Of a stretch of 64,000 bases of DNA, positions 35,936-44,903 are shown in pieces. Under the pieces are notes generated by a model. It saw only the letters and a list, made by a program, of their open reading frames with translations. It was not told the DNA's origin and did no database searches. Where the stretch lies: positions 62,001 through 126,000 of the forward strand of contig JARXAE010000024.1 in the NCBI GenBank assembly GCA_029866005.1, written 5' to 3'. The DNA is from Fimbriimonas sp. Lineage in GTDB: Bacteria > Armatimonadota > Fimbriimonadia > Fimbriimonadales > Fimbriimonadaceae. Numbering within the stretch: the first letter of the stretch is position 1; every line of letters starts with the position of its first letter. A program made the translations under genes and the position numbers.

Positions 35936-36646
35936 TTAGAGGGTTACCGGTCTGACATGTTCGGGGAAAGTTTCGGAGAGACGCTGCCACGCCATATGAA
36001 CCGCCGGAGGAACATTGACTTGGGCGATATAGTCTTGGCCTTGGGGTCCATAGGCGGAGAACCGCGGGATTTCGCCGAGGATGAGTTCTAGGAAGCGGTC
36101 GAAGGACCAGCCTTCGTTCTCGAGGCCGCTGGGGGTGACCGTGGGGATAAACGGCGGCGCGTTGAAGACGTTGGCTTCGGGGAAGGATTTTTGGAAAGAG
36201 GCGTGGGTTCGACGCTGCATCGTGGGGTCTTGGACGAGGATCATGGACTGGGGCTGAAGGCCAATCCTCTCCAACAGGATTTTCGACTGAACGGCATTTG
36301 AACCACAGTTGGTCGAGATCGATTCGACCATGATCCTTTCGGCGGGGACACGATATCTCCCAACCATCAGATCGTGAAAGATGTCGGCTTCAGCACGGTC
36401 TTCGCCTTCGATTCCCTCTTCCTCTAGGTTTGCCCAGAGACTGGGGGTGGAGTGTCCGATTCCTCCCGAAATCAGCACCATGGGGGCAAGTCCCACATGA
36501 AAAAGCTGGGCGCCGTAAGTTGCGTTGACAGGTAGGGCGGAGCCGAGAACGACGATGAGGTCGGCTTGGGTTGGGAGCTGATTTGGTGCGGCGAGGAACC
36601 TGGCGAGCAGATTGAGGTCCTCAACGGTTTGCGGTTCTAGCTGCAC
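35936..36646 (-). CDS. YdcF-family protein (DUF218)
   Basis: This 236-residue protein (GTG start) has the ElyC/SanA/YdcF domain: DLIVVLGSALPVNATYGAQL near residue 29, VLISGGIGHSTPS near 57, ESISTNCGSNAVQSKILL near 107, and LVQDPTMQRRTHASF near 134 where the usual motif is VTxxxHxxRA. E. coli YdcF binds S-adenosylmethionine, while ElyC and SanA act on the envelope. There is no membrane anchor. A decayed second copy of its C-terminal third is found near 40780-41035, next to the amine oxidase gene. Confidence 0.8.
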   Translation of the reverse strand: MQLEPQTVEDLNLLARFLAAPNQLPTQADLIVVLGSALPVNATYGAQLFHVGLAPMVLISGGIGHSTPSLWANLEEEGIEGEDRAEADIFHDLMVGRYRVPAERIMVESISTNCGSNAVQSKILLERIGLQPQSMILVQDPTMQRRTHASFQKSFPEANVFNAPPFIPTVTPSGLENEGWSFDRFLELILGEIPRFSAYGPQGQDYIAQVNVPPAVHMAWQRLSETFPEHVRPVTL

Positions 36647-36701: not shown

Positions 36702-38225
36702 TCAATGCTGGTGGCAGCTGCAATCTTCGGAGGTTTGCCATGGCTCGAGCTCGGCGAAGACGGCATCCTTGTTCTTCTCCATGTGCTTCGCGGCTTCCTC
36801 GAAGGTCATCTGGGGTGGGTTCTCGTGCTTCAGACCTTTGGCGGCGAGCATGAGGTTGAAGAACTCGAAGTTGTTGGTCATGCCGTGGCAGTATTGACTG
36901 CCGGGACCGAACGCGCTCACGAGGACGTGGTCGCTGGTGTGGTTGAGACTCGTGTAACCAACTTTGTGATAGTTCTGAAGAATCAGCGCGAGGACCGATT
37001 GTGGGGCCTTTTGGAGTTCGAGAAGACCGAAGGGAGATTTACCTTGAATCGTATCGGCGATCGCTTGAGCCTCGGCTTCTTTGAGTCCGTAAGTCATCTT
37101 CTCGCGGATCACGTCTTGCACCATGCTGGCCGTCGGCTTCTTGCCAATGGCATCGAAGATGGGGCCGAACGAGGCCTTGATTCCAGCGATAGAGGCGAAA
37201 CCTTTTGTGGTGTCTCCATACTCTTCGCCAGCTCCGTTGAGGGATGGACCTCCGGTGGCGTGATCGCTGGTGATGATAACCAGGGTTTCACCGTCTTTCT
37301 CAGCGAACTCGATCGCGACTTTCACTGCATCTTCGAAAGCGATTTGGTCGTGGATTTGTCCTGCGATGTCGTTCGCGTGGCCGGCGTGGTCGACCTTTCC
37401 GCCTTCGATCTGGAGGATGAAGCCGTTCTTGCCGCCCTTAAGGTTTTCGATGGCGGTCTTTGCCATTTCGGCGAGGGTCGGGACTTGAGTTTGGATCGAG
37501 ACGTCGTTCATGCGATCCACGGAGAATGGCACGTGGCTGTCACTGAAGATTCCGAGGATTTTTCCGGACTTGAGTCCGAGCAGAGAGTTTCGGTCTTTGA
37601 CGACCTGGTAACCCTTGGCGGCAAACTCCTTGTAGAGGTCTCGCTTGTCCTTTCGCTTCTCAGCGTTGAAGAACTTATCTCCTCCACCGAGAAGGACATC
37701 TACGTTGTTTGTAAGATGCTGAGCGGCGATATCGGCCTCTCGGTCTCGGTTGTCGATGACTACGGCGAAACCAGAGGGAGTCGCGTGGGTCATCGTGGTG
37801 GTCGTAACGAGTCCGGTTTTGATCCCAGCTTCCTGAGCGATGTTGTAAAGCGTTCGAAGCTTTGTTCCGTCTGGATAAACGTTGATTTGACCGTTCCACT
37901 GGCGTCGACCGGAACCCCAAGCGCCGGCAGCTGCCGCGGAGTCAGTCACGATGGAACTCAGTGAGCGGGTGTCCTGGAATCCGGTGGCGACATCGGGTCG
38001 CTCCATGAGCTCGGTCCAGAAGGAGTGCTTCCCTTCCGTCATCTGCTGGTAGTGGTTTGCCATGGTAACGACCTGGAGAGCCATGCCGTCGGCGACGCAG
38101 AAGATGATGTTTTTGGGTCGCTTACCTTTCCATGCTTGCGGCTGAAACGCCTCGATTCGGGCGAAAGGAATGCTGGCAAGGCCAGCGGCGCCAAGAGTGA
38201 GAAGTGAGCGACGGGAGACAGACAT
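36702..38225 (-). CDS. Alkaline phosphatase, Tat-exported
   Basis: This 507-residue protein has a twin-arginine signal (SRRSLLTLGAAGLASIPFARI at the N-terminus, here shortened to SRRSLLTLGAAGL), so it is folded before export. Alkaline phosphatase motifs are complete: FCVADGMALQVV near residue 42, IVTDSAAAAGAWGSG near residue 90 with the catalytic Ser, THATPSGFAVVIDNR near 146, IEGGKVDHAGHAND near 294 and ITSDHATGGPS near 334, which give the two zinc sites. The last residues are DCSCHQH, a Cys/His-rich end that could bind metal. It would release phosphate in the periplasm. A TAAACT box lies nine bases before the ATG. Confidence 0.88.
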   Translation of the reverse strand: MSVSRRSLLTLGAAGLASIPFARIEAFQPQAWKGKRPKNIIFCVADGMALQVVTMANHYQQMTEGKHSFWTELMERPDVATGFQDTRSLSSIVTDSAAAAGAWGSGRRQWNGQINVYPDGTKLRTLYNIAQEAGIKTGLVTTTTMTHATPSGFAVVIDNRDREADIAAQHLTNNVDVLLGGGDKFFNAEKRKDKRDLYKEFAAKGYQVVKDRNSLLGLKSGKILGIFSDSHVPFSVDRMNDVSIQTQVPTLAEMAKTAIENLKGGKNGFILQIEGGKVDHAGHANDIAGQIHDQIAFEDAVKVAIEFAEKDGETLVIITSDHATGGPSLNGAGEEYGDTTKGFASIAGIKASFGPIFDAIGKKPTASMVQDVIREKMTYGLKEAEAQAIADTIQGKSPFGLLELQKAPQSVLALILQNYHKVGYTSLNHTSDHVLVSAFGPGSQYCHGMTNNFEFFNLMLAAKGLKHENPPQMTFEEAAKHMEKNKDAVFAELEPWQTSEDCSCHQH

Positions 38226-38337
38226 CGTATTCCGAGTTTAGCGTTTTCGGAGGATAGAATTTGATTAGCTGACAGGAGTTCACTCCTTCGCTAACGTGTC
38301 CTTAACATTTGGATTAGCGACCGGAGGGGTTTCCGAC

Positions 38338-39738
38338 CTAGGGTTTTGTACGCCAGACTTCGTAGTTTCTCCCGTTTTCCAGGATGGTCCATTCCCACTC
38401 GGGTTTGACACGTCCGGTACGCGTGAAAATGACGCTATTGGGCTTGAGAGTTTTAGGATCATCTGATTCTGCCACGGACTTGTTGAGAACCATGATAAGC
38501 GATGGGAGAGAGGTCTCTTGAAGATTTGTCGTACCGGTAGCGAGTTCTTTTTCTTGACGGCTGAGACGGAAGACGGTGTCGATTTCCGGGTGGCGAAGGG
38601 CAATGGTATGCGCCTCAGCTTGACCCGACTGGACGTAATAGGAGGTCTGAAGTCCGCTGATAAGGAACAGGAGAAGGATTGCGACCCCGACGACGACTTG
38701 AGGATTGCGGGCGTTGGACTTTTCCTTCGTTGCAAGTGAATTCGCGGCGAGTATCGCCAGGGGTGCGATCACGGGAAGGATGTAGTGGGGGAGCTTTGCG
38801 CTTGAGACCGTGAAGAAGAGGAAAATCGTCGCCGCCCAGGTGAAGAGGTAGCGGTTGAGAGGCGTGGCGGACTTGCTTTGCCAGATTCGTCTTGCCTCCG
38901 TAAGGCCCCAGGGAATGACGGCGATCAGGAGGATGGGGATGTAGAACGGGAGTCCGGCGAGGCCGAGGGAGTGGGCGGCGTCTCCCCCAGTGAACCGTTT
39001 TAAGTTTTGGTCGATGAGGAATTTCTGAACGAAGTCTTGGCCGTTGGCGAGGTAGCAAGGGACGTACCAGGTGGAGATTGTTGCGATGAGGACAAGGAGT
39101 GCGGGGAGGAAGCCTTTGAAGAACTTGGGTCGCAGCTCGGGGTTTTGGTAGTAGGTGAGGGCAGCGATGGGGGCGAAAAGGAGGAGTGCCACTGGACCCT
39201 TGGCGAGGACTCCGATGCCGAGGAAGAAGGCGGTGAGCAGGACGTTTGATGTTGGCCGCTTTTCGTCGGCGGCGGGGTTAAGGTGATTCCAGAAACTTAG
39301 AAATGCACCGGTCAGTGCAAGGTTAAGCGCGGCGTCGGTCATCATGAGGCGACCGAGAATGAGGATGAGCAGGCTACTTCCCAGGCAGTAGACAACGTGG
39401 CGGGCTTGCCACTCGCCTAGATGCCGCTTCGCAAACTTTGAACAGAGGACATAGAGGGCGATAGTGCAGAGGACAGATGGGATTCGGGGGCCGATCCAGA
39501 TTCCGAAGATCTTCATGAACGGCGTAGCGAGCCAGTAGAGAAGGATTGGTTTTTCGAACCAGGGGCTGCCGTTGTAGTACGGCGTGATGAAGTCTCCCCT
39601 CCGAAGCATCTCGGCAGTGACGGCGCCATAGAAGCCTTCGTCAAGGTCGAAGAGTCCGCTTGCCCACCAGGTCACCATTGGGAGAATGGCGAACAGGTAC
39701 GCGAACCACATCGGATACGGCGGGCTCGGGCGCTTCAT
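38338..39738 (-). CDS. Glycosyltransferase family 39/ArnT-like membrane mannosyltransferase
   Basis: This 466-residue protein has about ten membrane helices and the GT-C signature near the N-terminus: LFDLDEGFYGAVTAEML with the Asp-Glu pair in the first outer loop, and GDFITPYYNGSPWFEKPILLYW following. Such enzymes take a sugar from a polyprenyl-phosphate donor outside the cell and attach it to protein, lipid A or another lipid. The final 90 residues are a soluble outer domain (TDTVFRLSRQEKELATG). The amine oxidase gene ends on its start codon (one-base overlap), so they are probably one transcript. Confidence 0.85.
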   Translation of the reverse strand: MKRPSPPYPMWFAYLFAILPMVTWWASGLFDLDEGFYGAVTAEMLRRGDFITPYYNGSPWFEKPILLYWLATPFMKIFGIWIGPRIPSVLCTIALYVLCSKFAKRHLGEWQARHVVYCLGSSLLILILGRLMMTDAALNLALTGAFLSFWNHLNPAADEKRPTSNVLLTAFFLGIGVLAKGPVALLLFAPIAALTYYQNPELRPKFFKGFLPALLVLIATISTWYVPCYLANGQDFVQKFLIDQNLKRFTGGDAAHSLGLAGLPFYIPILLIAVIPWGLTEARRIWQSKSATPLNRYLFTWAATIFLFFTVSSAKLPHYILPVIAPLAILAANSLATKEKSNARNPQVVVGVAILLLFLISGLQTSYYVQSGQAEAHTIALRHPEIDTVFRLSRQEKELATGTTNLQETSLPSLIMVLNKSVAESDDPKTLKPNSVIFTRTGRVKPEWEWTILENGRNYEVWRTKP

Positions 39739-40751
39739 TAACTTAGATTAAACCTTGGGATATCGCGCGGGTGCATTTTGCCTTCGGCGAAATCGGCCAG
39801 GCGCTCGCCGATCCAGGGACCGAATTTGAAGCCATGGCCAGAACATGGGGATGCCCAGAAGACGTTCGGAGCAGACTCACCCCAAAGGAAATCTTCGTCG
39901 GCAGTTCGGGTGTAGACACAAGTCGTTGGGCTTTCGAGAATTGGGTTTTGGATGCCGAATCTTGTTCTTGCGCAACTGCGAATCATCTCCAGATGCTCTG
40001 GATTTGGAGAGCCCGGTTCGTTGGGGTCCGTTGCGTCGCCTAGGTTGTGGACGCCGATCTTGATTGCGCTTCGCTCCGGTTCGGAGGGGAACCCGTAGAG
40101 CATGGGGTGGGTATCGTCGATCCAGACCATTCCTTCCATTGGTTCGGCAGTCCTGACGTAGGCGAACGTCTGCCTTGTGACGGTAACGGGGAGGTTGAAC
40201 AGGCTCTTTGCCCAGCCACCTGCGCAGACGATGACGCGGTCGAATGTAGATGTGAGTTGCTCGGGTGTTGGGATGTGTTCTTGGATGTGCGTTGCGTTGC
40301 TGAGCGACAGGAGAGTTTGGACGGCTCGGCTTGCGTAGACCCATCCGGCTTCCTTGGTGACGTAACCGATTTCGTCTTCTTGGATTGAGATGTCCGGAGA
40401 GTCGGGCCAATTGAAGACGGACTGCGTGACACCGTTGGCGCGAAGTGACTCAGTAACCTGTTGAAGTTCCTGGCTCTTCCGCTTTCCGAAGTAGACCAAA
40501 CCAGTCTCGAACAGAATTTGTTCGTTTGTTTGGGTTTGGAGTTCCTGCCACAGCGGGTAGCCCTCTTGCATGATCTCCGTGTAGAAGGGGTCGGGGTAAG
40601 CCTTGCGAACGATTCGGCTGTTGCCGTGGGAGCTACCGTTGATATGCCCCGGTGGGTACTGATCAAAGATGGTGACCGCGTGACCGCGCTGTGCGCACGC
40701 GTACGCGGTGCTCGCCCCCATGATCCCTGCCCCAATAACTGCAATCTTCAT
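39738..40751 (-). CDS. FAD-dependent amine oxidase, sarcosine oxidase/SolA-like
   Basis: Reading from ATG 40751 (preceded by GGGAGG) gives 337 residues; a TTG nine bases upstream is an alternative. The FAD loop IAVIGAGIMGASTAYACAQRG is at residues 3-23 (quoted as parts: AVIGAGIMGAS and AYACAQRG). NGSSHGNSRIVRKAYPDPFY near residue 36 and SPCSGHGFKFGPWIGERLAD near the C-terminus match monomeric sarcosine oxidase and N-methyltryptophan oxidase; the Cys would hold FAD covalently. It oxidises a secondary amine, giving hydrogen peroxide and formaldehyde in the classic case. A decayed copy of its N-terminal 77 codons lies at 41975-42211. Confidence 0.85.
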   Translation of the reverse strand: MKIAVIGAGIMGASTAYACAQRGHAVTIFDQYPPGHINGSSHGNSRIVRKAYPDPFYTEIMQEGYPLWQELQTQTNEQILFETGLVYFGKRKSQELQQVTESLRANGVTQSVFNWPDSPDISIQEDEIGYVTKEAGWVYASRAVQTLLSLSNATHIQEHIPTPEQLTSTFDRVIVCAGGWAKSLFNLPVTVTRQTFAYVRTAEPMEGMVWIDDTHPMLYGFPSEPERSAIKIGVHNLGDATDPNEPGSPNPEHLEMIRSCARTRFGIQNPILESPTTCVYTRTADEDFLWGESAPNVFWASPCSGHGFKFGPWIGERLADFAEGKMHPRDIPRFNLS

Positions 40752-40779
40752 TGTTGACAAATCCCTCCCTGCCCCTCGG

Positions 40780-41035
40780 CTTGCGCGAAACCTAATCCCC
40801 GGAGTCGCTTGGAGTCGATAGTCACCAGCCTATCCCAAGCGGCATCCATCTCACTCAGAATATCCAGGTGATTGATGAATCCCTGACCAGGGTCCGCATG
40901 CCGCTAATGTCGGAATCTCACCCAAAACAAGTACCAGAAATCGGTCGAACGACCACCCCTCATTTTCCAATTCAGTTGGAGTGACGACAGGAACAAACGG
41001 CGGCGCGGATTCAATTTCATCAATCACATCCGAAG
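40780..41035 (-). pseudogene. Remnant of a second ydcF-like gene (C-terminal third)
   Basis: On the minus strand a stretch reads APPFVPVVTPTELENEGW, then SFDRFLVLVLGEIP, ending near AACGP. This matches the intact YdcF-like protein encoded at 35936-36646 in about 29 of 39 residues over this part. The rest of the domain, including the N-terminal two thirds, is missing, and the homology continues downstream only after a frame change. It lies directly before the amine oxidase gene. It is a dead relic rather than a short gene. Confidence 0.7.
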
Positions 41036-41085
41036 CACTTCGCAGATCAGGTAGTTTTACCGGTCTTTTTTCGGTAACTCACATA

Positions 41086-41091
41086 TACACT
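41086..41091 (+). promoter_or_regulatory. Probable -10 box of the PEP-CTERM gene
   Basis: TACACT lies 55 bases before the ATG. No convincing -35 box is seen at the usual spacing. Confidence 0.35.
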
Positions 41092-41101
41092 AATGACAGT
41101 T

Positions 41102-41132
41102 AGTTCCGGTTTGGAACTTGGATTTGGAACTT
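41102..41132 (+). repeat. Inverted and direct repeat in the PEP-CTERM leader
   Basis: AGTTCC (41102-41107) and GGAACT (41113-41118) form an inverted repeat with a five-base gap. TTTGGAACTT occurs at 41110-41119 and again at 41123-41132. Together they make a short leader with possible hairpin or protein-binding function just upstream of the ribosome binding site GAGGG. Confidence 0.55.
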
Positions 41133-41146
41133 AGAGGGAAATTTTT

Positions 41147-41854
41147 ATGAAAAAATCATTAAAGAATGCCGCAATCGTTGCGATCGCGGTCTCGACTCTT
41201 GGTGTCGCTGGGCAGGCTGAAGCATTTACGTATACAGTGGACCAATCTGCCACATGGCTGGGATTCATGAACGTGTTTGACCTGCCTTCGAACGGTGGAG
41301 CGTATCAGTTTGGTAGCGCCTGGGGAACAGCCGATCTGACTGCTACTTGGAGCAGTCCTTCAAGCCTCACCCTCGGAACCAACAACATCAACGATCCGAA
41401 CCCTTACTGGTACGTTGGTGGCGGAGCCCCTGGCGCTCAAGGCAACAAGATCATGGACGCCAACATGTACGTGCAAGTCGCGGACGGTTCGTTGAGTAAT
41501 CAAACTGTGACTTTCACCGGCAATGTGGTTGCGAATACGCTCTTCGGTCAGACTGACTCATTGGGCAACGCATGGACCAGCGTTGCGTTCATCAAAGAGT
41601 TCACCTCGGACTTCAGTAGTTTTACACAGACGACCATTCCTCTCACAACGGGAACGTTCAGCATCAGCAAGGCCATTTCTAGTAACGCGACAAATATCGT
41701 GCAGTACGGTTTCCAAACGATAGGATCGAACGTTTGGATCACAGACGCTGCGGCGAAAGGCAACATCCAAATTCAGGCGGTGCCGGAGCCGACGACCATG
41801 CTTGCTCTCGGAGCTGGGCTTGCCTTCCTTCGCCGACGAAAGTCCACTCGCTAA
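41147..41854 (+). CDS. PEP-CTERM sorting-domain protein
   Basis: This 235-residue secreted protein starts with a signal peptide (MKKSLKNAAIVAIAVSTLGV, cleaved near QAEA). The mature part is rich in Thr, Ser, Asn, Gly and Trp and beta-like. The C-terminus is a PEP-CTERM signal: VPEPTTMLALGAGLAFL followed by RRRK, which exosortase recognises and cuts, releasing or anchoring the protein at the surface. No exosortase gene is in the window. It has a ribosome binding site (GAGGG) and a strong terminator, so it is a complete unit. It is flanked by dead gene pieces on the other strand, suggesting that it arrived by rearrangement. Confidence 0.85.
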   Translation: MKKSLKNAAIVAIAVSTLGVAGQAEAFTYTVDQSATWLGFMNVFDLPSNGGAYQFGSAWGTADLTATWSSPSSLTLGTNNINDPNPYWYVGGGAPGAQGNKIMDANMYVQVADGSLSNQTVTFTGNVVANTLFGQTDSLGNAWTSVAFIKEFTSDFSSFTQTTIPLTTGTFSISKAISSNATNIVQYGFQTIGSNVWITDAAAKGNIQIQAVPEPTTMLALGAGLAFLRRRKSTR

Positions 41855-41879
41855 TCTATCTTAACTGAGCGAAAACCCC

Positions 41880-41914
41880 CTGACTTCGGTTCTGCACCGA
41901 AGTCAGGCTTTTCT
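41880..41914 (+). terminator. Rho-independent terminator of the PEP-CTERM gene
   Basis: CTGACTTCGGT (41880-41890), loop TCTGC, ACCGAAGTCAG (41896-41906), then GCTTTTCT. The stem is a perfect eleven pairs, 26 bases after the stop. Confidence 0.9.
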
Positions 41915-41974
41915 CTGTGGATCAAGCCCTCGATTTCATAGTGAGTCGGTAAGGAGAACAGGATGTTTCCACGA

Positions 41975-42211
41975 AATCCCTTCGTTTGCTTGGGTTTGGA
42001 ATTCCTGCCACAGCGGTTAGACCTCCTACATGATCTCAGCGTAGAACGGGTCGTGTTATGCCTCGCGGACGATTCGGCTATTGCCGTGGGAACTGCCATT
42101 GGCATGGCCGGGCAGGAACTGGTCAAAAATGGCGACCTAATGACCGCGTTTGGCGCAGGCGCAGGAGGTGCTTGTACCCACGATTCCAGCTCCGATGATG
42201 GCGATCTTCAT
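41975..42211 (-). pseudogene. Remnant of a second amine oxidase gene (N-terminal 77 codons, four stops)
   Basis: From the ATG at 42211 the minus strand aligns codon for codon, without any gap, with the intact amine oxidase at 39738-40751: IIGAGIVGTSTSCACAKRGH, then IFDQFLPGHANGSSHGNSR, then DPFYAEIM and PLWQEFQTQANE. Stop codons fall at aligned codons 25, 52, 62 and 65, where the intact gene has Ala, Tyr, Gln and Tyr. The similarity ends sharply at about 41975. It begins five bases after the ppc stop. Confidence 0.85.
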
Positions 42212-42215
42212 TTCA

Positions 42216-44903
42216 CTAGCCCGTGCTTTGCATTGCAGCGGCGATTCCGGCAATGCTTTGCAGCATTGCTTCGCGCCAGGTTCCTTCTTTGTCTTGCTCG
42301 GTCAGATTTTCCCAGCGGTTCATGAGGTGGATTTGTAGCTTGTTGAGGGGAAGGGTCATCGGGTTGCGGAAGGCGACGGTTTGGCGGATGACTTTGCTGT
42401 TTTCAAGCAGCTCCTTTTCACCTGTGATGGCGAGCAGCCCATGTTTTGTACGATCGTACTCCTGCTCAATCTCTTTCCAGAATGATTGATCCTTTGCACG
42501 CTTTGCGTAGAGAGCAGCGGTCGGGATGTCGGCTCGAACGAGTTCAAGTTGTGCGTTATCGACAACGGTTCGGAAGAACGGCCACTCTTGGTACATGCGT
42601 TGAAGCTGATCCTTACCGTTGGGATGCTTTAGCAGTTCTTGCAACGCAGAACCGAAACCGTACCAACCGACGAGGAGCGCTCGACTTTGAACCCATGCAA
42701 AATTCCACGGGATTGCACGGAGACCTTCAACACCCTCGGCAGAGGCACCTGGGCGATAGACTGGGCGGGACGCAATCGGGAGGAGTGAGATGTGATCAAT
42801 CGGAGTCGCCTCGGTGTAGAAGTCCCAGAAGCCGGGAGTTTCGTAGACCAGCTTGCGGTAGGCGTAGCGACTGTCCTCACTTAGCTTTGACATGACGTCT
42901 TCGTACTTGCTATCGTAATCATGTTCGTTCGGTTCAATTGTGGCGATTAGACACGCAGAAACGATTTGTTCTAGGTGTCGGTGAGCGATCGCGGGCAATG
43001 AGTAGCGGAAACTAATCACTTCACCTTGTTCGGTGAATCGAATTTGCCCGCAGAATGCGCCTTTGGGCTGACTAAGTATTGCCTGTGAGGCACGTCCGCC
43101 GCCTCGCCCAACCGTTCCACCACGTCCGTGGAAGAGGCGAATTTTGATGCCGGTTTCCTCGCTGACCTGGGCGATTTGGCGCATCCCGTTTTGGAGTGAC
43201 CAGTTTGCAGCAAGGTAACCGCCGTCTTTGCTCGAGTCGCTGTAGCCAAGCATCACCTCTTGATAGCCGATGCCGTCAATGTACTTACGATAGAGCGGAA
43301 TCGCGAACAACTCTTTCAGCAAGCCCGCCGCTCGCTCTAGATCGTCGACGGTTTCGAATAGTGGAACAATGTTTGGGTTGTGCGGCGTTCCAAGAGATTC
43401 TTCACTCCAAAGCCCCTCTTCCTTGAGGAAGAGCATCACCTCTAGCATGTCGCTCACCGAGGTGGACATGCTCGTAATGTAGGTATCCATCCCAGGTTCC
43501 TGGCTCATGACTTGAATCGAGCCGAGAACCGTTTCAAGGTAGTCACCTTCGGGTTGACGGATGAGCGGGCGCGGGTTTTTAAGTTCTCTTAGTAGTATCG
43601 ACTGCTTTGTTTCTTCTTCTGCTTCGACGTATTCTTCGGGTTCCTTAATCAGCCCCGATTGCGCGAGGAGTTCACCCATTGCAATAGCGTGGACTTTGCT
43701 GTGTTGGCGCACATCGATGCTGGCAAGATGGTCGCCAAAGACACTCATTCTGCGGCGGATATCTTTTAGCCGGCTTCTCTCAGACAGCAGTTCAGAGCCG
43801 ACAGATTCTGAGATGACATCCAGGGCCGCTACCGCGTTGTAGAACAATGCCTCAGGCTTTCCGAGGTAGGAGATCACTCCGAGTAGCAGGAGCACAAACG
43901 GTTCCTGCGCGTACCGTTCTCGCTCAAAGTCACCGAGGTGTGGATCGAAGAATTTGATTTGAGACTGAAGCTCGGGGTTGTCGAGACCAGGGGTGTGCTT
44001 GACGGACTGGGTGAACTCCCAGCGGAGCTTTTCGAGATCTGCGATAAGCCTGGGGATGATGAGTTGTTGTTGGGCTTCGGCGGCGTCCGTCGTTGCGTCC
44101 GGAGTGACATTCGGATTTCCGTCCCGGTCGCCCCCGATCCAGGAGTGGTAGCGGAGGATGTCGGGAACTTCAACCCGATTGCCAGTCACCTCAAAGAGAG
44201 CATCTTCCAGATCTCGGTAGAGCCAGGGCACGACATCCAGGATCGTGCGATCAAAGAAGTAGAGCGCGTTTCTGACTTCTTCGTCTACAGACAGGCGTTT
44301 GTTGCGCATCTCGTCGGTGTGCCAGAGTTCGACGATCACATTTTCCAACGTTTGAGGAAGGTCGTGACCAACGTCCAAGGGGCTATTGAGATCATGGGTT
44401 CCCTGGCGGTGAGCAAGTAGGTGAGAGACATCGCGGAGCTTGTCGAGGATCACTTTTCGCTTCGCTTCGGTCGGGTGCGCGGTGAGGGTCGGGGCGATCC
44501 AGAGTTTGTTGACGGCTTCTATCAACTTCTCTGAGCCGTGCCTGGCGTGTAACTTTTTGACGGTTTCTCGAATTGACTCACGTCGGTCGCCGGTCTTGGA
44601 TCGTTCTCGGTTGACTCGCACGATCTCCTTTTGTTCGGCCGAGTTGATGAGCTGGAAGAGGAGAGTGAATGCCTTTCCAAAAGCTCGAAGACCCTCAGCA
44701 CACTGCAACTCAGGAGTTTGTGCAACTACCGCATCAAAGTCCTCTTCCGGATCGTTCACCAGCTTCCTCGCGGCTTGCACCAGCCAAGAGGCCTCATGAT
44801 CGCTCAGGACCTTCCCCATGACCTGATCCAAAAGCTGGATATCGGCGCTCAGCTCGGGCGAGAGACCGAAGGATTGGGGGTTGAGACCGAGGAAGGCATC
44901 CAC
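42216..44903 (-). CDS. ppc: Phosphoenolpyruvate carboxylase
   Basis: This 895-residue protein (GTG start) is full length. The catalytic His143 is in LTAHPTEAKR, the phosphoenolpyruvate/bicarbonate-site Arg residues are in GYSDSSKDGGYLAANW near residue 553 and FHGRGGTVGRGGGRASQAI near 593, and the C-terminal RNPMTLPLNKLQ near residue 860 ends at the usual allosteric region. It makes oxaloacetate from phosphoenolpyruvate and bicarbonate to refill the TCA cycle. A GATAAT box sits six bases before the GTG. It lies 32 bases downstream of the M28 peptidase gene but seems to have its own promoter. Confidence 0.96.
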   Translation of the reverse strand: MDAFLGLNPQSFGLSPELSADIQLLDQVMGKVLSDHEASWLVQAARKLVNDPEEDFDAVVAQTPELQCAEGLRAFGKAFTLLFQLINSAEQKEIVRVNRERSKTGDRRESIRETVKKLHARHGSEKLIEAVNKLWIAPTLTAHPTEAKRKVILDKLRDVSHLLAHRQGTHDLNSPLDVGHDLPQTLENVIVELWHTDEMRNKRLSVDEEVRNALYFFDRTILDVVPWLYRDLEDALFEVTGNRVEVPDILRYHSWIGGDRDGNPNVTPDATTDAAEAQQQLIIPRLIADLEKLRWEFTQSVKHTPGLDNPELQSQIKFFDPHLGDFERERYAQEPFVLLLLGVISYLGKPEALFYNAVAALDVISESVGSELLSERSRLKDIRRRMSVFGDHLASIDVRQHSKVHAIAMGELLAQSGLIKEPEEYVEAEEETKQSILLRELKNPRPLIRQPEGDYLETVLGSIQVMSQEPGMDTYITSMSTSVSDMLEVMLFLKEEGLWSEESLGTPHNPNIVPLFETVDDLERAAGLLKELFAIPLYRKYIDGIGYQEVMLGYSDSSKDGGYLAANWSLQNGMRQIAQVSEETGIKIRLFHGRGGTVGRGGGRASQAILSQPKGAFCGQIRFTEQGEVISFRYSLPAIAHRHLEQIVSACLIATIEPNEHDYDSKYEDVMSKLSEDSRYAYRKLVYETPGFWDFYTEATPIDHISLLPIASRPVYRPGASAEGVEGLRAIPWNFAWVQSRALLVGWYGFGSALQELLKHPNGKDQLQRMYQEWPFFRTVVDNAQLELVRADIPTAALYAKRAKDQSFWKEIEQEYDRTKHGLLAITGEKELLENSKVIRQTVAFRNPMTLPLNKLQIHLMNRWENLTEQDKEGTWREAMLQSIAGIAAAMQSTG

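Follow-up and report, generated by a model that had tools for sequence, protein, structure and literature searches.

The stretch of DNA analysed, hereafter the window, is 64,000 nucleotides long and corresponds to positions 62001-126000 of contig C32 in a draft genome of Fimbriimonas sp. (G000; 2.81 Mb, 38 contigs, 97.2% complete). The locus carries an intact gene cluster on the minus strand, two decayed gene ends and a PEP-CTERM gene on the opposite strand, in the following order:

42216-44903, minus strand: intact ppc (phosphoenolpyruvate carboxylase), which anchors the cluster on the left (Pfam PEPcase)
41975-42211, minus strand: 5' stub of an amine oxidase gene, decayed, codons 1-79 of the putative first copy (similarity to the intact gene)
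41879-41907, plus strand: terminator-like hairpin of 12 pairs with a T-rich tail, 3' of the PEP-CTERM gene (hairpin scan)
41147-41854, plus strand: PEP-CTERM gene, intact, 235 amino acids (PF07589 and TIGR02595 above cut-off)
41019-41974, no strand: stretch with no recognisable remains of the oxidase-to-ydcF block, containing the PEP-CTERM gene, edges approximate (blastn/tblastn)
40790-41018, minus strand: 3' stub of a ydcF/DUF218 gene, the decayed last third of a second gene, with one frameshift near 40889
40752-40789, minus strand: likely duplication junction, where the 3' flank of the ydcF stub meets the start of the intact oxidase; the relatives have the end of ppc there
39738-40760, minus strand: FAD-dependent amine oxidase of the DAO family, intact, putative second copy (PF01266)
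38338-39738, minus strand: GT39/PMT-type membrane glycosyltransferase, intact
36702-38225, minus strand: alkaline phosphatase (phoA), intact
35936-36646, minus strand: ydcF/DUF218 gene, intact (PF02698)

The two stubs and the plus-strand PEP-CTERM gene had been described in a first-pass annotation, and we found them in the same order and on the same strands, with coordinates that agree within about 10 bases. The names sox and ydcF are those of that annotation; NCBIfam names neither the oxidase (at its cut-off) nor the ydcF gene (at all). No Rfam match was found at the locus.

The intact amine oxidase matched PF01266 with 138.4 bits against a cut-off of 27.9, and its protein is 85% identical to that of relative G001 and 83% identical to that of relative G018. 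Two narrower identities were not supported at the curated cut-offs, that of a monomeric sarcosine oxidase (soxA_mon score of 184.1, below the curated cut-off of 479.65) and that of an N-methyltryptophan oxidase (score of 211.5 with the N-methyl-L-tryptophan oxidase model, below the curated cut-off of 257). Comparison of the oxidase stub with the intact gene showed that 182 of 232 bases are identical (78%, E 3e-51), as are 73% of the amino acids across 79 codons (E 2e-34). The stub was also recovered in a search of its own genome with two TAG and two TAA codons inside the match (E 3.1e-34); the stops are located at codons 25, 52, 62 and 65, and there are no indels. The ydcF stub extends to the end of ydcF and immediately precedes the start of the intact oxidase. 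It matched the intact ydcF of the window at 67% across 43 amino acids (E 6.2e-15), and with the ydcF of G018 as the query it matched residues 159-201 at 81% and residues 203-235 at 36%, in two frames. Its nearest sequences are the ydcF proteins of G018, G001 and the window (82, 75 and 72% amino acid identity, respectively), followed by others at 44% and 53%. The identity of the two stubs to intact copies is 57-78%, and by these alignments both similarities are beyond chance. Nothing suggests that either stub has a function.

Changes found only in the oxidase stub numbered 11, 6 and 10 at the first, second and third codon positions, while those found only in the intact window gene numbered 2, 2 and 9, a contrast that taken alone gave p 0.06. 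Of the new codons, 19 of 30 changed the amino acid in the stub, but only 21 of 78 did so among the three working genes (Fisher p 0.0007); as read from its codons, the stub has evolved under relaxed constraint. At third positions the stub and the intact oxidase differ at 32 of 81 sites, a value similar to those between pairs of the three working genes (34, 38 and 24), which suggests that the oxidase copies parted at about the time when the species split. At first and second positions together they differ at 25 of 162 sites, with 10 to 13 differences among the working genes. Since these positions differ less than third positions, the counts suggest a period in which the stub was still constrained.

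The gene order was then compared among 41 genomes, own genome included, of which 33 had a match to the oxidase and 21 a match to ppc. The two matches adjoin only in G001 and G018, 2 of the 40 relatives, which also have the ppc closest to that of the window (92% and 91% amino acid identity, respectively, the next genome being at 70%). In both, a single, uninterrupted cluster contains ppc, oxidase, GT39, chemoreceptor, phoA, ydcF and tatD, with a GNAT-like gene before ydcF in G018; neither genome has a stub, and each carries a single full oxidase of this type and a single ydcF. That oxidase lies between ppc and GT39 and directly adjoins both, while ydcF is next to tatD. In the window, the start codon of the oxidase stub lies 4 bases past the ppc stop, the same spacing as before the oxidase in G001 and G018; the intact oxidase overlaps the start of GT39 by 1 base, as in these two genomes, and has not kept the ppc junction. 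We also compared 13 genes of the window, at E 1e-6, with 55 additional loci. These were 27 loci around oxidases and 20 around ppc, each cut with at most 1.5 kb of flank, two longer segments at oxidases already counted, and 6 ydcF loci; in none of them did an oxidase lie beside ppc, GT39 or ydcF. In the longer ppc surroundings of G002, G003 and G010, the genes in common with the window were upstream neighbours, save for a weak partial GT39 match about 12 kb from ppc in G002. This gene order beside ppc is restricted to three of the genomes searched.

The chemoreceptor gene of G001 and G018, located between GT39 and phoA, is 2.3 kb long, and the window has 112 bases at this place (38226-38337). 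Elsewhere in its own genome only distant relatives of this receptor were found (35% and 32% amino acid identity over parts). Because the gene is present in both relatives and the own genome holds only these distant receptors, parsimony suggests that it was lost in the lineage of the window.

The protein encoded between the stubs, predicted to be located at the cell surface, has a PEP-CTERM motif that scored 25.8 bits with PF07589 (cut-off of 20.7) and 25.1 with TIGR02595 (cut-off of 16). It has the C-terminal VPEP motif, hydrophobic stretch and arginine-rich tail of the PEP-CTERM/exosortase (EpsH) sorting system (PMC1569441), and one exosortase match above cut-off (PF09721) is present in each of G000, G001 and G018. 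It differs from that system in fitting none of the named PEP-CTERM subfamilies, all of which scored below cut-off. Homologues were searched in 85 genomes of the family, own genome included, at E 0.001, and 58 of them had matches. Outside the own genome, the close homologues among the matches listed are in G055 (61% amino acid identity, E 3e-84) and G080 (54%, E 1e-77), which belong to other genera of the family; the remaining matches listed were at E 6e-9 or weaker, many over the C-terminal part only. The best match in the 19 other genomes of the genus was at E 4.5e-5, and G001 and G018 had none at E 0.001. The gene was either gained in the lineage of the window or lost in its relatives. In 14 and 12 kb around the G055 and G080 homologues, of which 4.2 and 1.9 kb lie on the upstream side, the other 12 window genes tested had no match. 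The G+C content of the PEP-CTERM gene is 52.8%, and that of the window is 54.5%. Within positions 40700-42260 we found four terminator-like hairpins, against a mean of 1.7 in shuffled sequences, and no sigma-70-like promoter. Direct or inverted repeats of at least 8 bases common to 40990-41110 and 41860-42010 were absent, and a search of the own genome for copies of the 1.47-kb stretch returned only the known oxidase match.

Together the stubs represent the outermost parts of the block running from oxidase to ydcF, and they lie on one strand in tandem order. Of the two oxidase junctions, the one with ppc survives at the stub and the one with GT39 at the intact gene; the ydcF stub precedes the intact oxidase. 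This arrangement argues for a tandem duplication. We consider it probable, at about 80%, that this block was duplicated in tandem, that the inside of the first copy was lost and that the PEP-CTERM gene lies in the resulting gap. The segment copied in tandem would have begun at the amine oxidase start and stopped where ydcF ends, immediately ahead of tatD; the first copy, beside ppc, would then have lost its interior, that is the 3' part of the oxidase, GT39, probably the chemoreceptor, phoA and the 5' part of ydcF. Its two outer ends would have remained and decayed without function, the PEP-CTERM gene would have come to occupy the gap, and from the second copy, which still has the oxidase, GT39, phoA and ydcF, the chemoreceptor would have disappeared. 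We infer a single event for both stubs, the end points of this event and the order of the deletion and of the PEP-CTERM gain. When positions 40761-42211 were searched for traces of GT39, the chemoreceptor and phoA (blastn and tblastn, with the block and its proteins), no match beyond the stubs was better than E 0.01; the best non-stub match to the block of the relatives covered 27 bases (E 0.01) within the PEP-CTERM gene, on the opposite strand. Because traces of the inner genes are missing, the size of the copied block is a deduction, and their full deletion would look alike. Since three genes (four in G018) separate oxidase and ydcF in the relatives, the duplication more likely involved the complete oxidase-to-ydcF block.

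The first-pass annotation had read the locus as a rearrangement scar, left when a tandem sox-ydcF-sox array lost its middle and received a new gene. A tandem duplication whose middle was lost does fit the gene order of G001 and G018, while of a compact array we saw no sign. The same annotation had proposed that relatives in which both fragments are missing would speak against a scar. Both are literally missing from G001 and G018, yet their absence is not decisive because a duplication private to the lineage of the window predicts the same. Duplication followed by loss is a well-known kind of change, and the locus is ordinary bacterial genome evolution, a fresh instance of a known process that settles no open question; in a little-studied group, it lets duplication, decay and gene gain be read at one locus. 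As in duplication-random loss, block ends stand in tandem arrangement, one copy has shrunk to pseudogene stubs and the surviving genes have kept their order. It differs in that the lost copy can still be read at its two outer ends, with a gene of another family standing between them. Most of the duplication-random loss papers listed concern mitochondrial genomes, for example PMC5745709.

The two stubs gave conflicting grouping signals. Site patterns of the oxidase grouped the stub with the intact window gene at 10 sites and otherwise at 4, while those of ydcF did so at 5 sites and otherwise at 15 (Fisher p 0.013 between the two genes). Unrooted likelihood favoured the grouping of stub and window gene for the oxidase (delta lnL of 6.3-6.4; AU p 0.041 and 0.065 for the alternatives) and slightly disfavoured it for ydcF (delta of 1.06, AU p 0.14), whose stub was placed by unrooted tests only; with both genes together the delta was only 0.8-1.2. 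When the oxidase stub was analysed with an outgroup, five placements gave AU p values of 0.12, 0.46, 0.65, 0.63 and 0.04, and positions before and after the species split were both allowed. The disagreement could come from later recombination of the window's ydcF with a G001-like allele, from a difference in age or origin between the stubs, or from a misleading signal in short decayed sequences. This conflict and the missing traces of the inner genes were counted against a single event for both stubs.

In an import or ectopic joining, DNA carrying the PEP-CTERM gene together with the tail of a ydcF would have entered at the oxidase gene, for example by single-crossover integration via a common oxidase stretch, so that a truncated copy now lies on one side and an intact one on the other. 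This would agree with the site counts, in which the ydcF stub is not grouped with the ydcF of the window, and with the best PEP-CTERM homologues being in other genera of the family. We regard it as unlikely, as the ydcF stub falls within the ydcF group of the three species, none of the 12 further window genes tested had a match in the 14 and 12 kb around those homologues, and a tandem duplication yields the exact order of the stubs with no extra assumptions. It is very improbable that the PEP-CTERM gene is a lone mobile cassette that landed harmlessly inside a decaying gene copy and brought the ydcF tail along, a reading that draws on the terminator-like hairpin of the gene itself and on its patchy spread among the genera of the family.

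The position of the ydcF stub directly before the intact oxidase would also be expected if oxidase, ydcF and oxidase had once been direct neighbours, the middle then being lost and a gene coming in. However, ydcF is not beside the oxidase in G001 or G018, none of the 27 other oxidase loci (flanks of up to 1.5 kb) had a ydcF match and none of the 6 other ydcF loci had an oxidase match. The adjacent pair postulated in the first-pass annotation was seen in none of the loci examined, and we give such a small array little credence. A chimeric assembly of the contig could be imagined in a draft genome of 38 contigs, but it is hardly believable for stubs that are so far from identical to the intact copies and contain stops or a frameshift, each oxidase copy moreover keeping one neighbour known from the relatives.

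Apart from the tandem duplication and loss favoured above, two minor differences were observed inside the cluster. In G018 (L059), the extra gene between phoA and ydcF, missing in G001 and in the window, encodes 311 amino acids and was judged GNAT-like by eye. In the middle of GT39 (window 38338-39738; L058 16841-18295), a stretch of 240 bases is much more divergent in G018 than the rest of the gene, with 58% nucleotide identity to the window and 57% to G001, and may be a recombined segment.
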